A model generated the notes under the pieces. That model saw nothing but the letters and a program-made list of their open reading frames with translations. It ran no database searches and was not told the origin of the DNA. Position numbers and translations under genes: made by a program. From the IMG/VR virus record IMGVR_UViG_3300009419_000019, positions 1-61,249 of that record: a DNA stretch of 61,249 bases. One strand, written 5' to 3'. Each line of letters begins with the position of its first letter. Positions within the stretch are counted from its first letter, which is position 1. This stretch comes from a virus. Positions 675 to 42,605 of this stretch are shown one piece after another.

Positions 675-3197
675 TTAGAGACCTTCACACTCTTCTTGGC
701 GTTTTCGCAGCCAATCCCGCACCTTGATCTTGTAGTCAACTTCTCCCTGAGAGCCGACGTATTCGAACATCTGAGGGTCTCGCACATACACCCTGGCCTT
801 GTCAGAACCAGTGATTCGCATGCGTCCGAGAGCCTCATAACCGTCCCGTTCGAGCATGAAATTGAGGGTCTTTCCAGGGGGTATCGCCGCGCCACGGGCA
901 GCAACCGCTTCCATCAGTGAGCCCAACTCGATCAGTTCCCACGACACACCCGGCACATCGTTTTCACGGATGATTTCGTCGAGCACTTGGATGAACTCGG
1001 GCTTCGAACGGGCGATCATCTGGCGACGTGCTTCGGTCTCAGGCGCGTCACCCATAGGGTCAAAGGCATCGGATTGCTCATGGTCGAGCAGCCACGCACG
1101 CAACGCGGGAGCGCACTCTGAGATGGTCTCGTAGAGCTTGGCGTAGTAGTCCCGGTTCTCGGCCTTGAACGCCTTGATGTCGTCGCGCTTTTGCCACCGT
1201 GAGAACAAGATCAGGTAGCGACGGTCGGTGTCGTCCAGGGGGAGAGCGTCTTTGTAGTTGGTGAACAGGAGGTAGTTGGTCGTGTTGATGCAGTTGTAGA
1301 CAGCCTTGCCCTTGGGATGCACCTCGATCACCGTGTTGGTGATGTAGGGCTTGATCCGGTTGATCACCTCGTACTTGTTCTTGTCGTTGATCAGGCGCAC
1401 TTCCTCGACGCACGCAACGCACTGGCCAGCACACCAGTCAGTGAAGTCGTTGTGAAGGATCTGCGCGTTCAGCATGGTCACGTTGCTCACGCCCATGACC
1501 GCACGCAGCATTTCGGCAAAGAACGTCTTGCCGTCACCCTGAACGCCTTGCAACAAGATCGCGTAATTGGCGTGCTTGCCTGGGTTTTGCACCACCCAGG
1601 AGAGCCAGTCCAAAAGCATGGCCTGTTCATCGGGTCGCTCCAACAGGTGCGCGATGTGGGCCTTGACCCGCTCGACGGCACGCTTGTCACGGGGCAGCAT
1701 CTTCTCGGGACGCTCGGGAATCTCGTGCTCTGCGTAGGTGTTGGCAAACACACCATCGGGCTCGTGGAAGATCGGATCACGACCGGGCATGTACCGACGC
1801 CCACCAACCGTATGGATCTTGTAGATGTTCAGTGCCAGTGAAGAAGCATTGGACGACGGTGTTGTGCGCCCTTCCAGTGCGTCCTTCTTGGTCAGAGCAT
1901 TGCGGTCGTACATCGCGTTGAAGCCTTGTTGCGACGTGGCGATCTTGTTGTTCGTGTTGAAGAAGCGGTCATCGCTGGTGTCGTACACCCAATTGACAGC
2001 CCACTTGGGCGTCTTCTCTTGCTTCTTCGGTGCGTAGGCCAAAGCCTTCTTGATCTCAACCAGCGATGTCTTGGTGCCGGTGATCGAGTCACGACGCTCC
2101 TTGGCCACCACGGCAAGCGCAGAACGCGAGAGACCGTCGATTTCGGCCTCACGAACCATCTGCCTTGCCTTCTCCCACGACTGAATATCTTTGGCTTCGA
2201 GGAATGCGTCACGCAACTTGATGGTCAACTCAGCCGTCGTGTTCTCGACAGCTTCCTTGGCCAAGCGCAAGATGTACCGTGCGGTAATGGGTGCCCGCTT
2301 TTTGCCTTGGACGTTGAAATCTTTCCAGCGTCGATCAAGCGCATCACCGTCGTAGTTGTCAGCGGTCTCAGACCACTCATGCCACAACTCATGGCCGGAC
2401 TCATCACCATCGAACTGATGGAACAAGGCCATGCCAACCTGCACCCACGTCTCGTAGTCGTCGGGGTTGGGCACCAGCAGCAAGCGTGAACGCAACTCAT
2501 CTGTGGTGATGTCGATGGGGTCGGTGTCTTCAAGCCAGGGGTTGTCGGCAAGCGTGCCTGCACCGGCTGAGCCAGCAAGACCGCTTCGGGCTTTCTTGAC
2601 GAGCTTCCAGCCTTCCTCTTGCGCGACTTCCTCGAAGTAGGCGATGAACTCTTGCGCCTTTTCTTCTGTCAGCAAGGGCAGCTTGTCAGCCGGTGTGTCC
2701 GTTGGCCCATTGAAGTCAGGCCACAGATAGGGGCGCTTCGTCTCAGGGTGAATGTGGTACGCGACGAACTGTTGGCCATCACCGAGGATCTCGATGCGGT
2801 GCTCCTGACCCCATTCATCGGCGTACTTCGATGATGTGATCTTGCGGAAGGGCTCGTCACAGCGAAAGACGAAAAGACGCTTGGGCGGCATGCCGATGCG
2901 CATCGGTGCATCTGCGATGTTGTCGATCACCCACTGCCCCAGCTTCTTCGATACATCTTCGTCGTACACGTCGATGTCGATGGCCGGTGTGTGCTTGGTG
3001 ATCACGCCCACGCCTGAGTTCTTGTGCCCGTGTTCGAGCCAGTCTTTCAGTTGTGCCTTGGTCGAGCGCGACTTCTGCCATCCGTCAAAGCCTGGGGCCT
3101 TCTTGCCACGTTGAATCGGGACGATGTTGTACCCGTTGTCGATCAACGTCTCACCGCATGCTGCTAGGAAGTCGCCTTGTTGCTTAAATTCACTCAT
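675..3197 (-). CDS. Primase-polymerase / superfamily 3 helicase
   Basis: An 840-residue bifunctional replication protein. The N-terminal prim-pol domain shows the metal-binding AIDIDVYD motif (about residues 72-79) and a conserved His near 148 (AYHIHPET). A PriCT-like helical domain follows at about 235-295 (DDYETWVQVGMAL). The C-terminal D5/P4-type helicase has Walker A GVQGDGKT (551-558) and a Walker B-like CVACVEEV (about 593-600). This family synthesises primers and unwinds DNA at phage or plasmid origins. The start overlaps the stop of the upstream regulator (ATGA), so the two are translationally coupled. The gene ends at a strong terminator beside the candidate origin. Confidence 0.92.
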   Translation of the reverse strand: MSEFKQQGDFLAACGETLIDNGYNIVPIQRGKKAPGFDGWQKSRSTKAQLKDWLEHGHKNSGVGVITKHTPAIDIDVYDEDVSKKLGQWVIDNIADAPMRIGMPPKRLFVFRCDEPFRKITSSKYADEWGQEHRIEILGDGQQFVAYHIHPETKRPYLWPDFNGPTDTPADKLPLLTEEKAQEFIAYFEEVAQEEGWKLVKKARSGLAGSAGAGTLADNPWLEDTDPIDITTDELRSRLLLVPNPDDYETWVQVGMALFHQFDGDESGHELWHEWSETADNYDGDALDRRWKDFNVQGKKRAPITARYILRLAKEAVENTTAELTIKLRDAFLEAKDIQSWEKARQMVREAEIDGLSRSALAVVAKERRDSITGTKTSLVEIKKALAYAPKKQEKTPKWAVNWVYDTSDDRFFNTNNKIATSQQGFNAMYDRNALTKKDALEGRTTPSSNASSLALNIYKIHTVGGRRYMPGRDPIFHEPDGVFANTYAEHEIPERPEKMLPRDKRAVERVKAHIAHLLERPDEQAMLLDWLSWVVQNPGKHANYAILLQGVQGDGKTFFAEMLRAVMGVSNVTMLNAQILHNDFTDWCAGQCVACVEEVRLINDKNKYEVINRIKPYITNTVIEVHPKGKAVYNCINTTNYLLFTNYKDALPLDDTDRRYLILFSRWQKRDDIKAFKAENRDYYAKLYETISECAPALRAWLLDHEQSDAFDPMGDAPETEARRQMIARSKPEFIQVLDEIIRENDVPGVSWELIELGSLMEAVAARGAAIPPGKTLNFMLERDGYEALGRMRITGSDKARVYVRDPQMFEYVGSQGEVDYKIKVRDWLRKRQEECEGL

Positions 3198-9321: not shown

Positions 9322-10916
9322 AGTTCAACCTCCTTGAGCACATTGCTCTGAAGTTTGCCGATGTCGAGTTCACTCGTGAGCAGATGCACGCGTATCAGCG
9401 CGAGGCTTATGAGTTCTTGAAGAAGAACCCGTACTCTGCGTTGTTCATCGACATGGGCATGGGAAAAAGCGTCACGTCACTCACGCTGATCGTGGATCTT
9501 CTGTTGTCCTTCGAGACAGAGAAGGTGCTTGTGATCGGCCCCTTGAAGGTGGCAACCGACACATGGCCGAACGAGATCCGCAAATGGGCACACACCGCTG
9601 TGCTCAATCACACGTTGATCCGCTGTGAGGACGACAACCCCGAGGTCATTGCTGCGGTGAAGGCCATGCGCCAGCGTGGTCGGCTGCTTGGTTGGTCAAA
9701 GGAAGAGATCAACAAGCGTTGCTTGGAAGTGCAAGCTGACACGAAAGAGAAGATCAAGCGTGCCAAAGCCTTGAGTGGCGCATCTGTTCACATCATCAAC
9801 CGTGAGCAGATCGAATGGCTGGTCAACTTCTACGGTCGCAAGTGGCCATACCGCACCGTCTTCATTGATGAGTCCAGTGCATTCAAGGATCACCGCACGA
9901 ACCGCTTCAAGGCTCTTGCCAAGGTGCGTGCGACACCTGGGCTGATCACGCGCATGCACCTCCTGACTGCTACGCCAGCAGCCGAGACATACGAGCACCT
10001 GTTCGCTCAGATTTTCTTGCTCGACGGTGGCGAACGCTTTGGTCGCCACATCACTCGCTTCCGAAACAATTACTTCAGCTACAACCAGTATTCACGCAAG
10101 TACAAGCTGCGCCCTGGGTGTGAGGAAATCATTCTCGATAAGATCAAAGACATCTGCCTCGTGATGAAGGCCAAGGACTACCTGAACTTGGCTGAGCCTA
10201 CGATTGCACCCCGTCAGGTGACTCTCTCAGACGATCAGATGGTGCTCTACAAGAGCATGGAGGAAGAGGGATACGTCAAGCTACCGGACGGCACTGAGAT
10301 CGACGCGGAGACCGCTGCTGCGCTTTCCGGGAAGTTACTTCAGATGTCGTCGGGGGTGCTCTACGAAACGTATGAGCTTGGCGATTGGGAGACCGAGGAT
10401 GTTCGCAAGGTCAAGCGGGTTCACCACTTGCATGACCACAAGATCGAGATGCTTCGCCAGATCGTCGAAGAATGCCCAGGTGAACCGCTCTTGGTCGGAT
10501 ACCACTTCAAGTCGTCTCTCGACCGTCTGAAGAAAGCATTTCCCAAAGCCGTGGCCATGGACAAAGAAGGCCGCTGCATCAAGGATTGGAATGCTCGCAA
10601 AATCCCCATGCTGTTCATCCATCCCCAATCCGGTGGCCACGGTCTGAACATGCAAAAGGGTGGGCACAACCTGATCTTCTTCGATCTGCCCTGGTCGCTT
10701 GAGCTATACCTGCAACTGATCGGTCGCTTGGCACGTCAAGGTCAGAAGCACCCGGTGTTGGTTCAACCCTTGATCGCTAAGGGTACTCTTGACGAACTGG
10801 TCTTCCGCTCACTCGTGGCTAAGCAGGACGCACAAGAAAAGTTGTTCCGCATGCTGAAGAAGATGATCAAGAAAGCACAGGAGAAAGCAAGTCAAGCATT
10901 GGAAGAGACGCTCTAG
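9318..10916 (+). CDS. SNF2-family helicase/translocase
   Basis: A 532-residue superfamily 2 ATPase. Motif I is DMGMGKSV (about residues 44-51), motif II DESSAFK, motif III LTATPA, and the C-terminal half has GGHGLNMQKGGH with LIGRLARQGQ (motifs V and VI). Phage SNF2 proteins of this length remodel replication or recombination intermediates and are usually paired with VRR-NUC. A perfect GAAGTTACTTC site lies inside at 10331-10341. The C-terminus is a basic coiled helix. Confidence 0.88.
   Translation: MKFNLLEHIALKFADVEFTREQMHAYQREAYEFLKKNPYSALFIDMGMGKSVTSLTLIVDLLLSFETEKVLVIGPLKVATDTWPNEIRKWAHTAVLNHTLIRCEDDNPEVIAAVKAMRQRGRLLGWSKEEINKRCLEVQADTKEKIKRAKALSGASVHIINREQIEWLVNFYGRKWPYRTVFIDESSAFKDHRTNRFKALAKVRATPGLITRMHLLTATPAAETYEHLFAQIFLLDGGERFGRHITRFRNNYFSYNQYSRKYKLRPGCEEIILDKIKDICLVMKAKDYLNLAEPTIAPRQVTLSDDQMVLYKSMEEEGYVKLPDGTEIDAETAAALSGKLLQMSSGVLYETYELGDWETEDVRKVKRVHHLHDHKIEMLRQIVEECPGEPLLVGYHFKSSLDRLKKAFPKAVAMDKEGRCIKDWNARKIPMLFIHPQSGGHGLNMQKGGHNLIFFDLPWSLELYLQLIGRLARQGQKHPVLVQPLIAKGTLDELVFRSLVAKQDAQEKLFRMLKKMIKKAQEKASQALEETL
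10331..10341. promoter_or_regulatory. GAAGTNACTTC site (intragenic)
   Basis: Exact GAAGTTACTTC inside the SNF2 helicase gene. Confidence 0.55.
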
Positions 10917-14157: not shown

Positions 14158-16210
14158 CCACCTCGGTGAAATCTTCATCGAGCTTGCGACGATTCTCAAG
14201 CCGCCCGAGCGCATGTCGCCATCGAAGGCGGCTGAGAAGTATCGCTACGTCAACTCCCCTGGTGCGTACATCGGCCCGTGGCTCAACCGAACCGTGCCCT
14301 ACATGGTCGAACCCCAGGACGTGTACGCCTCTTTGCGCTACTCGGGTGAAATCTTCGTTGGCCCTGCTCAGTGCGGCAAGACCGACTCCCTGGTCTTGAA
14401 CAGCGTTGTCTACTCGATCAAGGTCGAGCCAATGGACACCATGGTCGTGTGCCCAACGATGCTGGCTGCGCGTGACTTCTCGATGCGTCGTATCGACCGT
14501 CTGCATCGCCACAGTGTTGATGTCGGCAAGATGCTGCTGCCCGGTGCTGACAACAACAACACGTTCGACAAGCACTACCGCACGGGCATGCTGCTCTCGC
14601 TGTCATGGCCAACACCAACCGAGCTTGCCGGTAAGCCAATTGGTCGGGTGATCCTGACTGACCGGGATCGGATGCCTGACGACGTTGACGGTGACGGCGA
14701 ACCTTTCGACTTGGCATCCAAGCGCACAACCACGTTCGGCTCTTACGCAATGACCGTGGCTGAGTCGTCACCATCTCGTGAGGTGGACAACCTGAAGTGG
14801 ATTCGCTCATCTCCCCATGAGGCACCGCCGTGCAAGGGCATCTTGGCGCTCTACAACCGGGGTGACCGCCGTCGCTGGTATTGGCCATGCCCGAACTGTG
14901 ATCGTTACTTCGAAGGTAACTTCACGATGCTCACGTGGGACAAGCAGCCTGGGATGACCAACCTCGAAGCTGCCGAAAGCACGCGCATGGTTTGCCCGCA
15001 CTGCGCACACAAGATCCACCCCGATGACCGTGATGACATGCAGCAGTGGGGCATGTGGGTCAAGGATGGTCAGTCTGTCGATGAGTTCGGTCGGATCATC
15101 GGGCCGGTGCCTCGAACGATGATCGCCTCGTTCTGGCTCAACGGCGTGGCCGCTGCCTTTACCAACTGGCGCAAGCTGGTTGCTCTGTTCCTCGACGCCA
15201 ACGATGAGTACGAACGCACGGGCTCAGAAGAAGGCTTGACCAAGTTCTACAACAACGACTTGGGCGAACCCTACTATCCCAAGTCAATGCTCGACATGGG
15301 TCGTCTGCCTGAGACCCTCAAGGGTCGTGCAGAGGCTTTGCCTGAACGCGAGGTGCCCGAGGGTGTTCGCTTCCTGATCGCCAACGTGGACGTGCAGAAG
15401 AACAGCTTTGTTGTCCAAGTCCACGGTGTCATGCCGGGATCTCCGTTCGACACCGTGATCATCGACCGCTTCGAGATCCGCAAGTCAAAGCGCACCGACG
15501 CTGACGGGGACGTGGAATGGATTCGACCGCATGCCTATGCCGAAGATTGGCACGAGATCACAGAGCATGTGCTTGAGAAGGAATACCCCCTGGCCGATGG
15601 CTCCGGTCGCATGATGTCGATTAAGTTCACCACTTGCGACTCCGGTGGTAAGGAAGGCGTGACGACTCGGGCTTATGAGTATTACCGCTCGCTGCGTGAG
15701 CAGAACAAGCACCGTCGATTCATTCTGGTCAAGGGTGAAACCCTGCCGAACCAGCCTCGCACCCGGATCAGTTACCCGGACGCCAGCCGCCGAGATTCAA
15801 AGTCGGGTGCCCGTGGTGACGTGCCAGTTTTGATCCTGAACTCGAACATGCTCAAAGACGACCTCAATGGTCGCCTCGATTGCATTACCCCAGGTAAGGG
15901 CCTGTTCAGGTTTCCAAACTGGTTGTCCGACAGTTTCTTTGCCGAAATGTGCAGTGAGTACCGCACGCCGAAAGGCTGGGAAAAGGCGCACGGGGTTCGA
16001 AACGAAGGCTGGGACTTGGCGTATTACTTCCTGGGCGTGTGTGTCTCTGAACTGCTCCGGGTCGAGCACGTGGATTGGGCAAACCCGCCCTCTTGGGCAC
16101 GAGATTGGGACAAGAACGACTTGGTTCGCTCAGCAGATAAAACTAAGCCTTTTGCTCCTGCCGTAGAATCCGCGTATGATTTCAGGCAACTTGGGAAAGC
16201 CCTAGCCTAA
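14132..16210 (+). CDS. Terminase large subunit (lambda gpA family)
   Basis: A 692-residue packaging motor and nuclease. The ATPase has the Walker A-like GPAQCGKTD (77-85). Two CxxC pairs (CPNCDRYF and CPHCAHKI) resemble the zinc motif of gpA. The C-terminal nuclease half includes ANVDVQKNSF and TCDSGGKEG, fitting an RNase H-like fold with acidic metal ligands. Homology to gpA suggests cos packaging, but no cos site was identified. A near-perfect GAAGTGACTTT site (14119-14129) lies just before the start. The start may be ATG 14132 or 14138. Confidence 0.93.
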   Translation: MTMKTTRYNHLGEIFIELATILKPPERMSPSKAAEKYRYVNSPGAYIGPWLNRTVPYMVEPQDVYASLRYSGEIFVGPAQCGKTDSLVLNSVVYSIKVEPMDTMVVCPTMLAARDFSMRRIDRLHRHSVDVGKMLLPGADNNNTFDKHYRTGMLLSLSWPTPTELAGKPIGRVILTDRDRMPDDVDGDGEPFDLASKRTTTFGSYAMTVAESSPSREVDNLKWIRSSPHEAPPCKGILALYNRGDRRRWYWPCPNCDRYFEGNFTMLTWDKQPGMTNLEAAESTRMVCPHCAHKIHPDDRDDMQQWGMWVKDGQSVDEFGRIIGPVPRTMIASFWLNGVAAAFTNWRKLVALFLDANDEYERTGSEEGLTKFYNNDLGEPYYPKSMLDMGRLPETLKGRAEALPEREVPEGVRFLIANVDVQKNSFVVQVHGVMPGSPFDTVIIDRFEIRKSKRTDADGDVEWIRPHAYAEDWHEITEHVLEKEYPLADGSGRMMSIKFTTCDSGGKEGVTTRAYEYYRSLREQNKHRRFILVKGETLPNQPRTRISYPDASRRDSKSGARGDVPVLILNSNMLKDDLNGRLDCITPGKGLFRFPNWLSDSFFAEMCSEYRTPKGWEKAHGVRNEGWDLAYYFLGVCVSELLRVEHVDWANPPSWARDWDKNDLVRSADKTKPFAPAVESAYDFRQLGKALA

Positions 16211-16229
16211 TTTTTGCGAAAGAATCCAC

Positions 16230-16457
16230 ATGCCGTTGACGACCGAACAGAAACTTGAGGAAGCCGAGAAGGCTTATCACGCACTGGTCACGGGGACGAG
16301 CCCACGTGTGATCGTTGATCGCAATGGTGAGCGTGTCGAGTTCACAGCGGCAAACCGCCAAGGTCTCGCCTCGTACATCACCGAGTTGAAGCTGAGCCTC
16401 GGTTTGCTGACCCCGAGCTTCGCGCCATCGAACGGGCCAGCTACTTTCATCTTCTGA
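16230..16457 (+). CDS. Head-tail joining protein gpW
   Basis: A 75-residue protein with LEEAEKAYHALVTGTSPRVI, the hairpin RNGERVEFTAANRQGLASYI, then TELKLSLG, closely matching lambda gpW in length and pattern. gpW plugs the filled head and forms the platform for gpFII. It lies between TerL and portal, as in lambda. Confidence 0.9.
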   Translation: MPLTTEQKLEEAEKAYHALVTGTSPRVIVDRNGERVEFTAANRQGLASYITELKLSLGLLTPSFAPSNGPATFIF

Positions 16458-16459
16458 CC

Positions 16460-18088
16460 ATGACAAAACAACCTACGACCGAAGTCGCGCCTGTCACGCA
16501 AAAAGCCATCGGTGGTGGGTTGGAGGGTGCCGAACGAACGACTCGTGAGACGTTCAATTGGAGCCCCGCGATCATCTCCCCTGATCGCCAGATCAACCCG
16601 AGCAAAGAGCTTGCCGATGCTCGCGTGCTCGACACGATCCAGAACGACGGCTTCGCCATGGGTGCCGTTGGCACGCACCGCGACAGCATTGTTGGAAATC
16701 AGTTCCGACTCAACGCTCAGCCCAACATCGACGTTCTCGGCGCAGATGAAGCATGGGCAGAAGAGTTTCAGGTTCAGGTTGAGGCCCGCTTCAACCTGAT
16801 GGCTGACAGCGAAGAGTGCTGGTTCGATGCTGCCGGTGCCAACACCTTCACCAACTTGATTCGTCTTGCCGTGGTCGGCGAGGTGATCACAGGTGAAGTG
16901 CTGGCAACGGCTGAATGGCTGCGTTCTGTGACCCGCCCATTCAGCACGGCGATCCAGATGATCTCCCCGAGCCGTCTGTCCAACCCGAACGATGTGCCCG
17001 ATGACCGCTATCTGCGTCGTGGCGTGGCCAAGGATCGCTTCGGCAAGGCGTTGGGCTATCACATTCGTGCGTCGCACCCCACCGACTACTACACCGACTT
17101 CGAGACCTCGCGTTGGGTGTACGTGCCTGCTCGCAAGCCTTGGGGTCGTCGTCAGGTGATCCACATCATTCAGCAGATGCGCCCGGATCAAACCCGTGGC
17201 ATCAGCGACATGGTGACGGTGCTCAAGAACATGAAGATGACCCGCAAGTTCCGCGACGTGGTGTTGCAGAACGCAGTGGTCAACGCGAGCTACGCTGCTG
17301 CCATCGAATCCGAACTCCCCAAGGAAGTTGTTTTCGGTGCATTGGGCGCAGGGCAACCCGGCTTTGGTCAGATGCTCGGTGACTTCATGACATCGCTCAA
17401 CAGCTATGTCTCGGCGTCCGACAACATTGCCATCGACGGGGTGAAGATCCCACACCTGTTCCCTGGCACGAAGCTCTCGCTCAAGCCGATGGGTACCCCA
17501 GGTGGTATCGGTGGTGAGTTCGAAGAGTCGCTTCTTCGCCACACCGCAGCAACGCTTGGTCTGAGCTACGAGCAGTTCGCACGGGATTACTCCAAGACGA
17601 ACTACTCGTCTGCCCGTGCGTCCATGGGCGAGACCGAGAAGCACATGCAGTCGCGCAAGAAAGCCGTGGCTGACCGCTTCGCCACGATGATCTACACGCT
17701 GTGGCTCGAAGAAGAGATCAACGCCGGGAACGTCCCCATGCCCAATGGCAAAGGCGCAGAACTGTTCTACGACCCTGTGATGCGCGAGGCACTGATCAAC
17801 TGCACGTGGATCGGCGCTGGCCGTGGCCAGATCGACGAGAAGAAGGAAACTGAGTCGGCTGTGCTGCGGATTCAGAACAACCTTTCGACCCTGGAATTGG
17901 AGTGCGCTCGCTTGGGTCAGGACTACCGTCGCATTCTTCGCCAACGTCTGCGCGAAGAAGAATTGAAGAAGAAGTACAACCTCGTCGATCCCGTACCCGG
18001 TGCGATGGGGCAAAATGCGGGCAACAATTCCACGAACGGTTCGTCGGATAACCAATCCGACAATGAGAACGGAGATTCCAATGTCTGA
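16460..18088 (+). CDS. Portal protein (lambda gpB family)
   Basis: A 542-residue portal. It contains the family features DSIVGNQFRLNAQP, ISPSRLSNPNDVPDD, GYHIRASHPTDYY and SYEQFARDYSKTNYSSARAS. The ring at one capsid vertex is the DNA channel. The C-terminus is Asn/Ser/Gly-rich and disordered (NAGNNSTNGSSDNQSDNENG). It follows gpW by two bases and overlaps the protease gene by eight. Confidence 0.93.
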   Translation: MTKQPTTEVAPVTQKAIGGGLEGAERTTRETFNWSPAIISPDRQINPSKELADARVLDTIQNDGFAMGAVGTHRDSIVGNQFRLNAQPNIDVLGADEAWAEEFQVQVEARFNLMADSEECWFDAAGANTFTNLIRLAVVGEVITGEVLATAEWLRSVTRPFSTAIQMISPSRLSNPNDVPDDRYLRRGVAKDRFGKALGYHIRASHPTDYYTDFETSRWVYVPARKPWGRRQVIHIIQQMRPDQTRGISDMVTVLKNMKMTRKFRDVVLQNAVVNASYAAAIESELPKEVVFGALGAGQPGFGQMLGDFMTSLNSYVSASDNIAIDGVKIPHLFPGTKLSLKPMGTPGGIGGEFEESLLRHTAATLGLSYEQFARDYSKTNYSSARASMGETEKHMQSRKKAVADRFATMIYTLWLEEEINAGNVPMPNGKGAELFYDPVMREALINCTWIGAGRGQIDEKKETESAVLRIQNNLSTLELECARLGQDYRRILRQRLREEELKKKYNLVDPVPGAMGQNAGNNSTNGSSDNQSDNENGDSNV

Positions 18089-29620: not shown

Positions 29621-30304
29621 ATGGCCAACTTGACACCTACCCCCGACGAGAACGCAGATGTCTTCCAGTGGGATGGCCAAACGCCACTTATCGGTGGCTC
29701 GCCTACGGCACCGTTGAACCGTCAGGCACAAGCACTGCTGAATCGCATCGCTGGTGTGAAGGCGACACTGACGACAGCGATTGCCACAGTTGCATCGGCA
29801 GCACAGTCGGCTCAAGACGCAGTGCAACTGTTCCTTGGTTACCGGCAACTTGCGCAGATTCAGCGGTTCTCAACAGGTGCATTTGCATCCGGGACAACCC
29901 GTTTCAATTACGACAACACCGTTCCTCTGAGCAACGAAGGTGATCAGTACCTAAGTGTGACGATCCCGCCTCAAGACGCGAACAGTACATTGACGGTGAA
30001 GGTTCTGCTGAACTTCGGCATTAACGTCAGCGCCACAGCGGCAGTTGCCTTGTATGTTGACGACGAAACAGAAGCTCGTGCTGTGACAGCGAAGACATTG
30101 CCCAACAACGGGGACTCTGCCGGTCAGATGCTTCTCAGCTTCTCGATGGTTGCTGGTTCAACGTCTCCGAAGACGTTTAAGGTTCGCGCTGGTATTTTGG
30201 GTGCGCCTGTAGGCACTTTCTCAATCAACGGACTACCGAACCTTGGCGCGACATTTGGCGGGAAGATGATTTCATCCATCGAAGTTAAGGAGTATTTGCC
30301 ATGA
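29621..30304 (+). CDS. Tail fibre-like protein
   Basis: A 227-residue protein starting MANLTPTPDENADVFQWDG (AGGA upstream; a TTG two codons earlier is less likely). PLNRQAQALLNRIAGVKATL is the anchoring helix common in phage tail fibres. The rest is predicted beta-rich. It overlaps the next gene by ATGA. It may attach to the tail tip; receptor binding is inferred. Confidence 0.55.
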   Translation: MANLTPTPDENADVFQWDGQTPLIGGSPTAPLNRQAQALLNRIAGVKATLTTAIATVASAAQSAQDAVQLFLGYRQLAQIQRFSTGAFASGTTRFNYDNTVPLSNEGDQYLSVTIPPQDANSTLTVKVLLNFGINVSATAAVALYVDDETEARAVTAKTLPNNGDSAGQMLLSFSMVAGSTSPKTFKVRAGILGAPVGTFSINGLPNLGATFGGKMISSIEVKEYLP

Positions 30305-34866: not shown

Positions 34867-35075
34867 GCGAGCCAATCATCGTGACCGTTGCCGACGTGCG
34901 TGCGTGCAACCTGTGCGTGCGTGGTGCCCGTCAGTGGTTCAGCCTGCATGGTTTGGACTTCTCGACGTTCCTCATCCACGGCTACCCCATTGAAACCATC
35001 GAAGCCACGAACGATGCCTTGGGCACGAAAGTGGCCACGTATGCACGTGCTCGTGCAGCAGGAGAAGAAGCATGA
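34863..35075 (+). CDS. Small protein of tail hub operon
   Basis: A 70-residue protein with VADVRACNLCVRGARQWFSLHGLDFSTFLIHGYP, in a tight ATGA-type overlap with both neighbours. This short pattern recurs in phages just before the gpJ-like gene. A CxxC pair may bind a metal. Function unknown. Confidence 0.6.
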   Translation: MSEPIIVTVADVRACNLCVRGARQWFSLHGLDFSTFLIHGYPIETIEATNDALGTKVATYARARAAGEEA

Positions 35076-36664
35076 GCCGTTGGCATCGTCATGAGTGGGA
35101 CATGCTGCCCGAGCGGGCTTTCCAACCCCGTGGGCCACATGGCCAGATGACCCTTGAAGGTGGGGGCGGTGGTGGCGGTGGCTCACAAGTCATTGGCTAT
35201 CGCTACTCCTTTGGCATCCACATGGGTGTGTGCCGTGGCCCTGTTGATGAACTCGTGGCCATCCGTGTCGGTGACAAGTCGGCATGGACAGGCAGTGTCA
35301 CGGGCTCAGGTTACTTCCCGATCAACAACTACAACCTGTTCGGTGGTGACAAGGGCGAGGGTGGCATCCAGGGTGAGGCCCATGCGATGTTCGGTCATCC
35401 TGCCCAATCGAGCTTGCCCCAGCTTGAGGCAATGACGGGTGTGGCACAGCCTGCCTTTCGCGGCATGTTCACCTTCTTCTTCGACGGCATCATCTCTGCG
35501 ATCAACCCGTACCCGAAAGCGTGGAAGCTGCGCGTTCGCCGGATCATCCAGGGCTGGCAAGCTGACACGCTGCCCACCTGGGCCTTGAGCTACGCCAAGA
35601 TCGTCATGGTGCCGTCTGACGCTGCTGCGTTGGGCACCGGCTACGGGGACACGGACATCCATGCGATGAACCCTGCCCTGATCATCTACGAGTGCCTGAC
35701 CAACCGTGAGTGGGGTCGAGGTTTTCACCCAAGCGCACTCGACACCGAGGGCACGTTCCGCCAAGCCGCACAGACCTTGTACGAAGAAGGCTTCGGCATG
35801 TGCATCAAGTGGTCGCGCAAGGACTCGATCAAGTCGTTCATTCAGGGTGTGCTCGATCACATTGCAGGCACGCTCTACACGGATCGCACGAGCGGTCTGA
35901 TCAAGCTGCGGCTGATCCGTGACGACTATGACCGTGACACGTTGCCGCTGTTCACACCCGAGAGCGGGTTGTTGGAGATCACAGGCAACACGGTCAGCAA
36001 CAGCGGTGAGTCGGTCAACGAGATCCAAGTCAAGTACCGGCACCCGGTGACCAACGAGATGCGGATCGTTCGCACTGACAGCCTCGGTGCGATCCGTGCT
36101 GCCGGTGGCGTCAACAACCCGAGCACCCGTGACTACCCTGGCTTGCCGACAGCAGAGCTTGCCTTGCGCGTGGCTGAGCGTGACTTGCGCACCGTGGCCA
36201 CCTCGCTTCGCCGCTACTCCTTCACGCTAGATCGCCGGGGCTACGCGATCTACCCTGGCCAAGCCATTCGCATCGCTGACCCGTCAACGCTGGTGCCCGA
36301 CACCGTGGTGCGCGTTGGCAAGCTCGACGACGACTTCGAGAGTGGTCGCATCAAGGTCACAGCCGTGCAAGACGTGTTCGGTCTGCCGTCTGAGAGCTTT
36401 GGTGGCACGGTGGGTCAGACGTGGACGCCACCTGACAACAAGCCCTGCTTGTCGTATCACCGTGTTGTCGAGGCTCCGTACTTCATGGTTGCCCGCAACA
36501 CGTCGGCTGCTGACTTCGCCTACGTCGATACAACGTCGGCGGGCATGCTGACGATGTGCAACGAAGGCAAGCCACTCAACGGTGCTTATGACATGGCCGT
36601 TCGCATCGGTGGCTCCACCACGGACGACAACCCGCCTGATGGCTCCTACAACTGCCCGATCTGA
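35072..36664 (+). CDS. Tail tip hub protein (gpJ-like/phage tail protein family)
   Basis: A 530-residue protein with a Gly-rich stretch (EGGGGGGGGSQ) at about 29-39. The core (ALIIYECLTNREWGRGFHPS, IKSFIQGVLDHIAGTLYTDRTSGLIKL) matches the central hub domain shared by gpJ and T4 gp27-like proteins. It forms the lower ring through which DNA and tape measure leave. It is shorter than lambda J (1132 residues), so receptor binding probably lies in separate proteins. Confidence 0.78.
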   Translation: MSRWHRHEWDMLPERAFQPRGPHGQMTLEGGGGGGGGSQVIGYRYSFGIHMGVCRGPVDELVAIRVGDKSAWTGSVTGSGYFPINNYNLFGGDKGEGGIQGEAHAMFGHPAQSSLPQLEAMTGVAQPAFRGMFTFFFDGIISAINPYPKAWKLRVRRIIQGWQADTLPTWALSYAKIVMVPSDAAALGTGYGDTDIHAMNPALIIYECLTNREWGRGFHPSALDTEGTFRQAAQTLYEEGFGMCIKWSRKDSIKSFIQGVLDHIAGTLYTDRTSGLIKLRLIRDDYDRDTLPLFTPESGLLEITGNTVSNSGESVNEIQVKYRHPVTNEMRIVRTDSLGAIRAAGGVNNPSTRDYPGLPTAELALRVAERDLRTVATSLRRYSFTLDRRGYAIYPGQAIRIADPSTLVPDTVVRVGKLDDDFESGRIKVTAVQDVFGLPSESFGGTVGQTWTPPDNKPCLSYHRVVEAPYFMVARNTSAADFAYVDTTSAGMLTMCNEGKPLNGAYDMAVRIGGSTTDDNPPDGSYNCPI

Positions 36665-36666
36665 TC

Positions 36667-37489
36667 ATGGCCACCTCCGACTACACCGTCACCGCTACCT
36701 CGATCCCGTTCTGCCCGAACGCGGCCTTGTCGTCTGCCATTGCCCCACTGACCACGGTCATCCCGATCACGGGCTACCGATCTGCCGGCATTGAGGAAGT
36801 CGTTGCCGGTGAGGCTGCGATGATCAACGACGAGATCGTTCGCATCGAGAGCTTCAGCCCTGTCTCGATCACCGTGGCCCGTGGCTGCGCTGACACGATC
36901 CCCCAGGCGCACGCAGCAGGCTCGACCATCTGGTTCTTCGACGACAGCTTCGGCAATGACGCTCGTGAGTACGCCGGGTCTGAGACCATCGCTGTGAAGT
37001 TGCTTCCGAAAACGGCCAGTGCCCAGGTGCCCATTGCCAACAGCACACCGGCCAATGTGACGTTCAACTTCCGCTTTGCCCGTCCTTACGCACCCGGCAA
37101 GGTCGAGGTCGATGGTGAGCCGTTCACTGCCGTGAGCATCGTTGGCCCTGCCAATCCTGCTTTGAACCTGACCTGGGCGCACCGTGATCGCGTCAGCCAG
37201 TTTGACCAGTTGATCGACCACAGCATGAGCAGCGTCGGCCCCGAGGCTGGCACGACGTATGTTGTGAAGGTCTACAAGGCTGACAACACGCTCGTGCGCA
37301 CCGTCTCAGCCATCACCGGGACATCCTGGGGATTACCCCTTGGCCACGGCGAGAAGTGACTTCGGGATCACGGTGGGTGCCGGTGCTGCGTTGACAGCCG
37401 GCTACCTCACGCTTGAGTCCGTGCGCGACGGCTACGTCTCGTGGCAGAAATACCGGGTTGAGTTCCAAGTCAGTAACGCCGCAAGTTGA
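36667..37489 (+). CDS. Tail protein with an apparent +1 frameshift
   Basis: The frame starting MATSDYTVTATSIPFC ends at 37359 after 230 residues (SWGLPLGHGEK). Skipping one G of GGGG (37328-37331) continues as SWDYPLATARSDFGITVGAGAALTAG and runs to TGA 37487-37489 (VEFQVSNAAS), giving about 273 residues. The shifted ending completes the expected VYKADNTLVRTV...YP pattern of this tail family. It may be a sequencing error, a mutation or programmed +1 frameshifting. A perfect GAAGTGACTTC site lies in the extension. Confidence 0.6.
37353..37363. promoter_or_regulatory. GAAGTNACTTC site
   Basis: Exact GAAGTGACTTC overlapping the first stop codon of the tail gene, about 140 bp before the lysis promoter. 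Confidence 0.55.
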
Positions 37490-37996: not shown

Positions 37997-38282
37997 ACTT
38001 TGGGCCTCTGCGAATCTGACCATCTGTGCAGGCTGCTTTTGGGCTTGCGTGTGCCGCCTCAACACGATGACGTGTGCGGTGCCCAAGAAGGTCCGACTCC
38101 AATTCGTCTTGATTCTCGTCGGTGCGATGGCCAGTGGCCTTCAGCCGGTGTTGTTTCAACAGTGGCCGGGAGTGGGGCAAACCCTGTTCTCGGCTGCTGT
38201 CTTTCTCGGTCTGCTGTTGTCCATGTCGAGATGGCGTGACGGGCCACCTGAAGACCTCATCTGCAAGGGAGAGCGCAAATGA
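37983..38282 (+). CDS. Second small membrane protein of the lysis cassette
   Basis: A 99-residue protein with membrane segments near 9-25, 38-55 and 65-80, overlapping the upstream holin gene by 14 bases (AGGAG then ATG 37983). It may be an antiholin or second holin. No cleavage motif is visible. It overlaps the endolysin start by ATGA. Confidence 0.6.
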   Translation: MHSVELWASANLTICAGCFWACVCRLNTMTCAVPKKVRLQFVLILVGAMASGLQPVLFQQWPGVGQTLFSAAVFLGLLLSMSRWRDGPPEDLICKGERK

Positions 38283-38718: not shown

Positions 38719-39042
38719 ATGAGCTACAAAGGCAAAGGTGTCTATCACGCTGGCCCTGGTGGCATTGAAAAGCCGGGTGACTTTGGTTGGCGAATTGATA
38801 TTGGCCGCGAACAAGTGGATGGCATTCAGCGAGACGCTGTTGCCCAGGTGACATTTGTGCAGCACTGCCCGAAGTATGGAGTGTGCATGATCAAGGTTCA
38901 TCAAGCTCCACCAGATCAGGCTAAAGCCATTTGGCAGTGGGACGGCAATTGGGAAGCTCCTACGATTAACCCATCTATCGGGTGTGACAACGCACCGCGA
39001 TGTGGATCACACCGAACCATTGTGTGCGGTGTACCAACCTGA
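38719..39042 (+). CDS. DUF6527-like small protein
   Basis: A 107-residue protein. WQWDGNWEAPTINPSIGCDN and the Cys/His-containing end (PRCGSHRTIVCGVPT) resemble DUF6527, seen in lysis cassettes of several phages. It starts after the seam TGAGACCAACCATG, which recurs before the next gene. An earlier ATG at 38707 overlaps the previous stop. Function unknown. Confidence 0.6.
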   Translation: MSYKGKGVYHAGPGGIEKPGDFGWRIDIGREQVDGIQRDAVAQVTFVQHCPKYGVCMIKVHQAPPDQAKAIWQWDGNWEAPTINPSIGCDNAPRCGSHRTIVCGVPT

Positions 39043-39574: not shown

Positions 39575-41194
39575 ATGCCACCCATCGGACAACGCGAGGT
39601 AACTGCGAATGGCCTGACCATGCCCAATGGTCTCGGTGATGAACAGGACGACATCAAGAACTGGCGTGCTTTGGATCAGATGATCTCGGGCACTCACCCG
39701 ACTGTTCAACTGCACAGCAACTTGAATCCGGGTGCTGCCGCTGCTGCACCCACGTTGCCCGCACCGGCACTGTTGGAGAGCTTTGATTCGACAACGGGCT
39801 TCACGGCATCCGGTGGCGCAACCATTGCACTTGACACGACCAACAAGGTGCAGGGCTCCGGTGGCCTGTCTTTGCGCGGTGGTGGCGTGTTGAACAACAA
39901 CTCCATTGCAACGAAGTCATTGGCTGTGCCGCTGCCCAAGGACGCGCTGGGCGTGGTTGCGTTCTACGTCAACAAGCGACTGCCACGGGTCACACAGAAC
40001 GCGGCCATGCGTTTCGGCGCTGGTGGCACGTACTCTGCGATGACCAACAAGGTCTCCGAAGCAAACATCGGCCTTGATTCTGAACCCGGTGGCTACTGGC
40101 AAGCCTTCCACCAGAGCGAGATTTCCGACATCCCTGTAACCATCGACGCCATTCAGGTGCGTGCGAACCATGGTGCGTCGAACTTCCCCTATGACGGTTA
40201 CCTGACCTACGACGCTCTGTACTTCAACGCCAAAGGTCGTCCAACCTGGGTCATTGGCTTTGACGACGGTGAAGACACAACACACGACATCGCCTTGCCC
40301 ATCATGCAAGCAGCGGGCTTCAAGGGCACGGTCTACATCCCAACCGCACAGATCGGCGTCTCCGACTCGATGACCTGGGATGAGGTTCGTGTCTTGCGTG
40401 ACGCTGGTTGGGCGATCTGCCTCGACGGCTCACCTGATGACGCTGAGATGACCTTGGCTGCTTCTGTGCAAGCTGCCGTGGACAACTGCAAGAGCCAGTG
40501 GGTGAAGTTGATCCAAGAGGGTTGTGCCTCTTCAGCGATGTATCACATCTGCTACCCGAACGGCACCGCACACGTTTCACCCACGCCAGTGCAGATCGCA
40601 GCCATGACGGGCAACGGCACGACGGCTGTGACGTTTGGTGCTGCGGCTGCTGTGACCAACGGCATGGAGATTTACGGTGCGGGTGTACCTGAAGGAACCG
40701 TGGTCGTCAGTGGCGGCGGTGCCAGCGTGACAGGTGTCACTCTGAACAACGTGATCCCGACTCAAACCAAACCGGCCATTGCTCAAGACACGTCGGGCAC
40801 CTTCTACATGGGCAAGCTGCCTGCTGCACTGAAGGCTGCTGGCTTCAAGTCGGCACGCCGCACGATTGGTGCTCCGGTGTTCTCGCGCTTCGGCTTCGCT
40901 GGTCGTGAGATGTACCACGCTGGTCAGGGTGTGTCGTCCATGACGTTGAACCAAGCTCTTGCACTCTTGGCTCAAGACGTGCTGCGTGGTCAGACGCGTG
41001 AGTTCTACTTCCACAAGATTCAAGAAGATCCTGTTGGTTGGACGCCTGACACGCAGAACGTGAGCATCAATATGTATCGCAGCTTCTTCGCTGGTCTCGT
41101 GGCTGCGATGAAGGCGTACACCGATGCCGGTGTTGCTGACGTTCTGACCAAGTCCCAATGGTACGAGCGCGACATCAAAGCGACGCTGCCTTGA
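39575..41194 (+). CDS. Tail spike with polysaccharide deacetylase-like domain
   Basis: A 539-residue protein. Residues 1-53 are an anchor domain shared with the next gene (MPPIGQREVTANGL... to SNLNPG). A lectin-like beta segment follows (residues about 65-205). The C-terminal half is a NodB-type deacetylase fold: WVIGFDDGEDTTHDIALPIM with the DD metal motif and GFKGTVYIPT, and SAMYHICYPNG for the later active-site region. It may remove acetyl groups from host surface polysaccharide during adsorption. AAAGGA precedes the ATG. Confidence 0.78.
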   Translation: MPPIGQREVTANGLTMPNGLGDEQDDIKNWRALDQMISGTHPTVQLHSNLNPGAAAAAPTLPAPALLESFDSTTGFTASGGATIALDTTNKVQGSGGLSLRGGGVLNNNSIATKSLAVPLPKDALGVVAFYVNKRLPRVTQNAAMRFGAGGTYSAMTNKVSEANIGLDSEPGGYWQAFHQSEISDIPVTIDAIQVRANHGASNFPYDGYLTYDALYFNAKGRPTWVIGFDDGEDTTHDIALPIMQAAGFKGTVYIPTAQIGVSDSMTWDEVRVLRDAGWAICLDGSPDDAEMTLAASVQAAVDNCKSQWVKLIQEGCASSAMYHICYPNGTAHVSPTPVQIAAMTGNGTTAVTFGAAAAVTNGMEIYGAGVPEGTVVVSGGGASVTGVTLNNVIPTQTKPAIAQDTSGTFYMGKLPAALKAAGFKSARRTIGAPVFSRFGFAGREMYHAGQGVSSMTLNQALALLAQDVLRGQTREFYFHKIQEDPVGWTPDTQNVSINMYRSFFAGLVAAMKAYTDAGVADVLTKSQWYERDIKATLP

Positions 41195-41229
41195 ACTAAG
41201 TTCCACATCCAATTGAAAGGAAAACCATC

Positions 41230-42561
41230 ATGCCTCCTATCGGACAACGCGAAGTCACTGCCAACGGTTTGACCATGCCCAACGGGCTTGGCGACGAGCA
41301 GGACGACATCAAGAACTGGCGTGCCCTGGATCAGATGATCTCGGGTACTCATCCCACGGTGCAACTTCGCAGCAACTTGAATCCGGGTTCTGTTGTGACC
41401 AGCCCTTACGGTTCACGAAAGTCTGGTCGCTCAGCATTTCAGGCCCGTGTGGCACCAAGCTCGCGTGCAGCGGCCAACAGCACGATTGCCCTGGCGATCA
41501 GCCAAGCGGGCGGCTTCCGCGCATTCCGACTTGTCGTGCGCAACGCCAACACGACCGTGCCGCTGAACATCACGGCAAAAGCTGGGGTATCGGCTACAGC
41601 AACGCCATCCGGCTCAGGCATCAGCCCTGTCAACGTGACCTGGGGTCGAGACAACGCAGGCGCGTTGATCACATCCAAGACTGTCCCTGTTGGCTCCACT
41701 GCAAACATGATCGGTGGCCAAGCTGCTTCTGGCGTGGCAGTCTCAGACTGGATCGGGCTCGAAAGCATTGCCCGGACAGACGTGGTGGGCGCTGATCCGA
41801 TCTTGTACTTGCGCATCGCATCACCAGACGGACTCTTGTACGACCCGATCGACTGGACTGCTGCGCTGCCTGTTTCCACTGGCCGCGTGCTGCGCTCGTC
41901 CTTTGCAAGCGGGGTTGACAACGTGGCTTCTTGGGCCACAGCAATGGCGCTGAGTGCCGCCAACTCGAACATCCTTCCGGACGTTTGTGTCGAGTTTTTG
42001 AGCGGCGGGCGCACAGCGTCAGTGGCTGTTTTTGCTGACTCACTCGCTGCCGGTGGGGCCTCCCCGACTGTCAACTACATCTTGGCAACGCAAGCCAAGC
42101 TCGCCACTGCTGGCGTTACCGCTGGCATCGGGATGTATGCTGTCGGCGGGCAACGTCGTCAAACGACGTCGGCAAACTTGCAGGCCGTAGTAGCTCTGCA
42201 AAAGCCTGACTTTGTTGTGATGCACGATTACTCGGTCAACTCTGCGGCCGCTCCGGCCATCGCGGCAAACGAGCAGTGGACGTACCTGTGCAATGACATT
42301 GCAGCGGTCGTTGCCAATGGTGGCATCCCGATCATCGTGACCATGCACACGAATGACACCTATGCTGCGCGAACCCGTGCAGCGTTCGGAGGCATTTACC
42401 CAATCGTGGACATGGCTGCGCTGCTCTCAAATGGTGCGGGTGGCATCCAAGATCAGTATTGCGCTGACCCTGTGTCGGATCGCACCCACATCTCTGCTCT
42501 CGCGTGCGACGTGGTTGGGACAGCACTTTCGGATGTGCTCGTTTCGCTGATCCCTGCGTAA
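41230..42561 (+). CDS. Tail spike with SGNH-esterase-like domain
   Basis: A 443-residue protein with the same 53-residue anchor as the previous gene (52 identities) but a different body. The C-terminal domain has VAVFADSLAAGGASP (the GDS-like nucleophile block, here ADS), VVMHDYSVNSA (the block III/N region), IIVTMHTNDT and SDRTHISAL (the Asp-x-x-His block), fitting an SGNH/GDSL acetylesterase. It may remove O-acetyl groups from host polysaccharide. Ends at a bidirectional terminator. Confidence 0.75.
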   Translation: MPPIGQREVTANGLTMPNGLGDEQDDIKNWRALDQMISGTHPTVQLRSNLNPGSVVTSPYGSRKSGRSAFQARVAPSSRAAANSTIALAISQAGGFRAFRLVVRNANTTVPLNITAKAGVSATATPSGSGISPVNVTWGRDNAGALITSKTVPVGSTANMIGGQAASGVAVSDWIGLESIARTDVVGADPILYLRIASPDGLLYDPIDWTAALPVSTGRVLRSSFASGVDNVASWATAMALSAANSNILPDVCVEFLSGGRTASVAVFADSLAAGGASPTVNYILATQAKLATAGVTAGIGMYAVGGQRRQTTSANLQAVVALQKPDFVVMHDYSVNSAAAPAIAANEQWTYLCNDIAAVVANGGIPIIVTMHTNDTYAARTRAAFGGIYPIVDMAALLSNGAGGIQDQYCADPVSDRTHISALACDVVGTALSDVLVSLIPA

Positions 42562-42584
42562 CACCACAACCCACCAAAACAAAA

Positions 42585-42605
42585 GGCCCCAAGCGGGGCC
42601 TTTCT
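42585..42605. terminator. Bidirectional terminator between convergent operons
   Basis: GGCCCC (42585-42590), AAGC loop, GGGGCC (42595-42600), then TTTCTT. On the other strand the stem is followed by TTTTGTTTTGG. It serves both the rightward late operon and the leftward accessory operon. Confidence 0.8.

Follow-up and report, generated by a model that had tools for sequence, protein, structure and literature searches.

Adjacent putative tail spikes with a protein-identical N-terminal anchor and saturated synonymous sites in an uncultured phage

The window analyzed here, a virus record of 61,249 bases (IMG/VR IMGVR_UViG_3300009419_000019), contains two adjacent genes, spike 1 and spike 2, whose products begin with the same 46 residues and continue into different bodies, and the codons for the shared residues differ between the two genes as much as would be expected of two independent codings. 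The same twin layout, with other bodies, is present in two relatives. It is probable that both proteins are tail spikes of a siphovirus resembling phages BcepNazgul and Carli, that both are held by the same N-terminal dock of ~46 residues, that their bodies occupy a swap site, and that spike 2 de-esterifies a glycan and spike 1 binds one. The combination of a peptide-identical anchor and saturated synonymous sites suggests that the spikes use equivalent docking sites and that the underlying DNA has diverged enough to resist recombination.

The phage and its twin spike genes

Family and PHROGs matches identify a lambda-type portal, a gpA-type terminase, a capsid protein E, and a long tail module in the window (features are collected in Table 1). 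The J-like tail-tip protein is 46% identical over 88% coverage to its counterpart in BcepNazgul (Casjensviridae), which relates the tail module to the type members, and 38% identical to that of Sphingomonas phage Carli. The rightward late genes finish with the spike genes, which lie downstream of the lysis genes. As a separate observation, the gene right after J (36667-37359) encodes 230 aa in the window and 277 aa in both relatives, and the missing C-terminal part is found just downstream, near 37328, in another frame; a frame disruption or a sequencing or assembly error is likely.

Table 1. Positions of tail, lysis, and spike features in the window
Feature	Positions	Strand	Evidence
Third modular tail fibre, with its own conserved N-terminus of ~50 residues	29621..30304	+	N-terminus distinct from the spike anchor; body replaced in both relatives
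J-like tail-tip protein, candidate tail platform	35072..36664	+	PF13550; phrog_1101; BcepNazgul tail protein (46%)
M15-type peptidase (lysis)	at 38279	+	ORF and family match
Rz-like protein (lysis)	at 39000	+	Position and appearance only
Spike 1 (539 aa): anchor, beta-sandwich, NodB-like domain	39575..41194	+	ORF; PF01522 match
Anchor copy 1, spike 1 residues 1-53 (1-46 identical in copy 2)	39575..39733	+	Sequence comparison
Probable carbohydrate-binding-like beta-sandwich, spike 1 residues 66-222 (putative boundaries)	39770..40240	+	Weak model match; layout as in the NodB spikes of L001 and L004
NodB-like domain, spike 1 residues 223-539	40241..41191	+	PF01522 and profile alignment
Motif 1 FDDG, spike 1 residues 229-232, conserved Asp pair	40259..40270	+	Alignment
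Motif 2 position, spike 1 residues 283-289, LDGSPDD in place of HxxxH, no histidine	40421..40441	+	Alignment
Spike 2 (443 aa): anchor, domain common to phiPLPE gp33, SGNH-like domain	41230..42561	+	ORF; BLASTP to phiPLPE gp33
Anchor copy 2, spike 2	41230..41388	+	Sequence comparison
Ser271 in FADSL, putative SGNH block I nucleophile	42040..42042	+	phiPLPE gp33 alignment; TesA serine alignment
Asn337 in YSVN, putative SGNH block III	42238..42240	+	phiPLPE gp33 alignment
Asp417-Arg-Thr-His420, putative SGNH block V DxxH	42478..42489	+	phiPLPE gp33 alignment
Terminator-like hairpin and T run, 3' of spike 2	42580..42602	+	Sequence

The two spike genes are separated by 35 nt, and each ORF is preceded by a GAAAGGA-type ribosome site. 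An earlier note on this DNA, made from the sequence alone, had reported that 52 of the 53 N-terminal residues are common to both proteins and that about 22 codons differ synonymously; the recount returned exactly these numbers, with His47/Arg47 as the sole residue change, residues 1-46 identical, and all 22 synonymous differences lying in codons 2-46. Past residue 53, pairwise comparison detected no similarity between spike 1 and spike 2, in agreement with the two different bodies that had been proposed to follow the anchor. No match to the anchor was found in annotated phages, Pfam, or PHROGs, and its docking role is therefore inferred from the layout; no match was found in genome contigs either.

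Selection on the anchor

Over its 46 codons the anchor has a dN of 0 and a dS of ~2. Random coding of two copies with the codon usage of this phage predicts 23.0 synonymous differences, and with 22 observed, the synonymous sites are saturated. The same comparison (22 observed versus 23.0 expected) gave no sign of a synonymous excess above the saturation level, such as active anti-repeat coding would produce.

As a yardstick, all 46-codon segments of 32 orthologous ORFs were compared between the window phage and L001 or L004, its two relatives (n = 17,239). Identity at 46 of 46 residues was found in 173 segments, all in an 840-aa protein (675-3197), the helicase, and the capsid protein, and in none from tail proteins. 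In only 14 segments (0.08%), all from one place in the helicase, does such full identity accompany synonymous change of 50% or more, and the identity of the anchor is therefore not attributable to chance; it sits among the most constrained 0.1% of segments. The six anchor copies in the three phages vary at 19 columns, at all of which (19/19) spike 1 and spike 2 agree, compared with differences at 7 columns within the L001 pair and 8 within the L004 pair. At the rates of those two pairs, the chance of agreement at all 19 would be near 1e-4, a rough figure given that the columns are not equivalent. The plain reading of these patterns is purifying selection on the anchor peptide, and the claim of the earlier note that the anchor is kept by selection and that the duplication is not recent stands. 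The saturated codons, together with the twin layout in two relatives, argue that the anchor pair is an old, selected docking module. The socket by itself does not demand full identity, since L001 and L004, which have nearly the same tail tip, tolerate 15-28% differences among their anchors.

The spike bodies

Residues 220-331 of spike 1 match PF01522 (Polysacc_deac_1) at 24.9 bits, just over the 23.1-bit cut-off, and the domain is also picked up by a profile of 20 cellular NodB domains and is 39% identical to gp10 of Arthrobacter phage Qui over about 110 residues. The assignment of spike 1 as a NodB-type polysaccharide deacetylase held for the family match and for motif 1 (FDDG), with its conserved Asp pair for catalysis and metal binding, and failed at motif 2, H(S/T)xxH, where both metal-binding histidines are absent. 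A YPNG at residue 327 resembles motif 3 and an FHK at residues 479-481 (His480) resembles motif 5, with an alignment that is uncertain past an insert. This insert, rich in Gly, Val, and Ala (residues ~337-412, about 40583-40810 in the window), lies within the NodB-like domain and is absent from Qui gp10 and from the NodB spikes of L001 and L004. The spike 1 model predicted from a four-sequence alignment has a pLDDT of 36 and is not usable for catalytic geometry; in a fold search this low-confidence model gave weak matches to CBM27/CBM22 and to the HFTV1 turret, the turret head being the best match.

BA0150 and ECU11_0510, CE4-like proteins of solved structure that lack the Asp-His-His triad, are regarded as inactive (PMC5855634, PMC10967932). 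Because both motif-2 histidines are missing, ordinary CE4 deacetylase activity of spike 1 is doubtful, and a glycan-binding or altered-metal role is likelier. The NodB spikes of the relatives also depart from the canonical ligands, each differently: motif 2 retains only the first histidine in L001 (NHGANN) and only the second in L004 (NEGLNH), where motif 1 is FDGA. Annotation of NodB-like spikes should take into account that the metal site may have been lost.

Spike 2 has no direct Pfam match to GDSL families. It matches gp33 of Iodobacter phage phiPLPE in a pairwise BLASTP comparison (E 1e-10), and that protein, a putative acylhydrolase, matches PF13472 at 1.6e-11. Since the assignment rests on phiPLPE gp33, spike 2 is called SGNH-like, without formal family membership. 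The SGNH-type domain proposed in the earlier note is borne out by the retained catalytic residues Ser271, Asn337, Asp417, and His420, with block I (FADSL) being GDS-like with Gly replaced by Ala. Spike 2 is a probable esterase; its single-sequence structure prediction (pLDDT 34) is not usable for catalytic geometry. Judged by these residues, only spike 2 of the two clearly looks like a working enzyme.

Related phages and the origin of spike pairs

Besides the window, only two anchor-bearing contigs were found in IMG/VR, L001 (60,445 bases) and L004 (59,294 bases), and each of the three phages contains exactly two anchor copies across its whole length, in adjacent genes and nowhere else. In L001, a 704-aa spike with a sub-threshold pectate-lyase-like match (25.0 bits against a 27-bit cut-off) is followed by a 502-aa NodB-like spike; in L004, a 473-aa NodB-like spike is followed by a 653-aa spike of parallel-repeat appearance without a family match. 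No close relatives of either whole window spike were found in viral contigs. The J-like proteins of L001 and L004 are 99.4% identical, their anchors 72-80% identical, and their spike bodies unrelated or barely alike (28%), which makes the spike cassette a swap site between phages that otherwise resemble each other closely. Within pairs, the anchors differ synonymously at 14% (L001) and 24% (L004) of codons. Tuning of the anchors to the socket of each genome by coevolution is not claimed: anchors resemble each other most within a genome, but only three genomes are involved, and the nearly identical tail tips and different anchors of L001 and L004 also disfavor it. A small protein of 123-126 aa, apparently with a signal peptide, is encoded upstream of the spike pair in L001 (7264-7641) and downstream of it in L004 (17719-18090); no homologue was noticed beside the window spikes.

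The third modular fibre, upstream of the spike cassette, is a second swap site (29621-30304). Its conserved N-terminus (MANLTPTPDENADVFQWDG...) matches the start of the tail spike of Acinetobacter phage Alexa (53%), and the bodies are unrelated among the three phages, with 229 aa in the window, 558 aa in L001 (G001:27227-28903; RCC1-repeat-like, a label given by eye), and 290 aa in L004 (G002:31136-32008; another protein).

The 282 bases between the L001 spikes (10116-10397) consist of two copied flanks: first that of the cassette's 3' side (the terminator and the coding end of a converging gene with an acidic tail), then that of its 5' side (the end of the ...LIHPPQ...ARQFR ORF and the ribosome site), which also precedes the first spike. 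These copies look like the remnant expected of unequal exchange between two one-spike genomes. The 45-bp stretch around the hairpin downstream of spike 2 recurs in L001 at 93% identity, once after each of the two spikes. No trace of flank duplication was found in the 35-nt gap of the window.

Proposed roles and alternative explanations

The explanation considered probable at the outset treats both genes as encoding tail spikes, that is, receptor-binding proteins, which would be held to the tail by one short N-terminal docking peptide. The bodies found on this anchor belong to spike-type families (pectate-lyase-like, NodB, and SGNH through phiPLPE gp33). With an identical peptide, both spikes would probably sit at equivalent sites, and the two would be mixed on a virion. 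The relatives keep the double-anchor layout, with other bodies presumably acquired by recombination via the flanking sequences. As an SGNH hydrolase, spike 2 probably de-esterifies a host surface glycan, and spike 1 most likely binds glycan through its beta-sandwich and a NodB-like domain lacking the usual metal site; it would be a binder devoid of catalysis or else an enzyme whose metal site is altered.

The earlier note had instead envisaged two active deacetylases removing N- and O-acetyl groups from one host polysaccharide. The PF01522 match, the motif 1 Asp pair, the motif-3-like YPNG, and a possible motif 5 at His480 speak for this on the side of spike 1, as do the SGNH residues on the side of spike 2, and tail-spike deacetylases are known (PMC8471582, PMC6989608, PMC9569702). 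The idea is nevertheless judged improbable, as the spike 1 part is unsupported at motif 2, which has no histidine and thereby resembles the CE4-like proteins described as inactive. Moreover, the partner of the NodB spike in the relatives is a pectate-lyase-like or repeat-type body and not an esterase, which means that the pairing of complementary deacetylases is not conserved.

Other alternatives concern the history of the pair. Recombination may have joined the anchors of two long-separated phages with the same socket, in which case the identity would reflect an ancient fixed peptide and would be uninformative about equivalent sites in the virion; the two genes may even be alternatives, one of them poorly expressed. 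This possibility, regarded as somewhat doubtful, draws on the unequal exchange of which L001 bears a direct trace, on a synonymous distance between the window anchors that matches the range between phage lineages for tail genes (35-58%), and on a tendency of spike 1 to be a codon outlier; third-position G+C shows no evident foreign codon usage in either gene. It requires the same selection on the peptide, however, and so differs from the preferred explanation mainly in history, and it must accommodate two intact, closely spaced genes, each with its own ribosome site, and twin copies that persist in three phages. A recent duplication in which one body was later replaced would suit the adjacent tandem arrangement, and the low synonymous differences in the L001 and L004 pairs are compatible with younger duplications there. 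For the window pair it is refuted by codon saturation, with 22 of 42 degenerate codons differing, the level of random coding, and it is given almost no credence. A more speculative idea, rather unlikely as it stands, invokes opposing selections: the peptide would be kept identical for the same tail positions, giving mosaic virions, and the DNA kept dissimilar since identical tandem copies recombine away. In phage S117, an added fifth spike sharing N-terminal coding DNA with tsp4 led to recombination between them or loss of neighbors (PMC11414711). Protection of the spike pair by its DNA difference is compatible with the window data, in which no excess over saturation is seen; if the idea is correct, saturated codons would be a condition for the stability of a double-spike phage. 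Spike pairs may arise by unequal exchange, as the L001 flank duplication suggests, and may be stabilized by DNA divergence under a fixed peptide. Whether double-spike phages with identical anchors form mosaic virions, with a random mixture of spikes at equivalent positions, is a testable question.

Comparison with known systems

The layout of spike 1 (anchor, beta-sandwich, NodB) resembles that of the HFTV1 turret head gp31 (8qpg), a trimer with an N-terminal stalk, a galactose-binding-like beta-sandwich, and a C-terminal NodB-like/deacetylase domain (PMC12494034), which is also the best, if weak, sequence match of the L001 NodB spike (E 0.11). Unlike spike 1, gp31 sits on an archaeal virus capsid, has three zinc sites, and retains both motif-2 histidines. 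Spike 2 resembles phiPLPE gp33, with 27% identity over its residues 56-275, including the serine block, and aligned SGNH residues; unlike spike 2, gp33 lacks the shared anchor, and its gene adjoins capsid genes. BcepNazgul and Carli (Casjensviridae and kin) share with the window the J-like protein and a similar tail gene order. In contrast to the window, neither has a detectable anchor copy, and BcepNazgul has one long fibre gene (1,270 aa) after J. Both were rejected as carriers of twin-anchor genes, as was Serratia phage JS26 (L013), whose three tandem paralogues after the tail tip (14541-17485) are 26-32% identical along most of their length, with no N-terminus conserved alone, and form a multi-copy arrangement, within the same family, that is unrelated to the spike pairs.

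Branched multi-spike phages carry several receptor-binding proteins with conserved short N-terminal docks and exchangeable enzyme bodies (PMC6872550, PMC11414711). Compared with these systems (TSP1-4 of the Ackermannviridae CBA120 and S117; phages K1-5 and G7C; the Klebsiella KP32, Menlow, and PhiK64-1 groups), the genes of the three phages described here, with two anchor copies each, likewise place a conserved docking N-terminus on at least two spikes. No T4gp10-like branching domain was matched in the spikes in Pfam or PHROGs. Spikes of the branched systems usually have a dock of their own (T4gp10-like XD/TD domains or distinct conserved peptides), whereas both spikes of the window carry one and the same 46-residue anchor. 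Multi-spike phages with conserved docks are thus already known, and the unusual feature of the present pair lies in anchors that are identical in protein sequence and saturated at synonymous sites.
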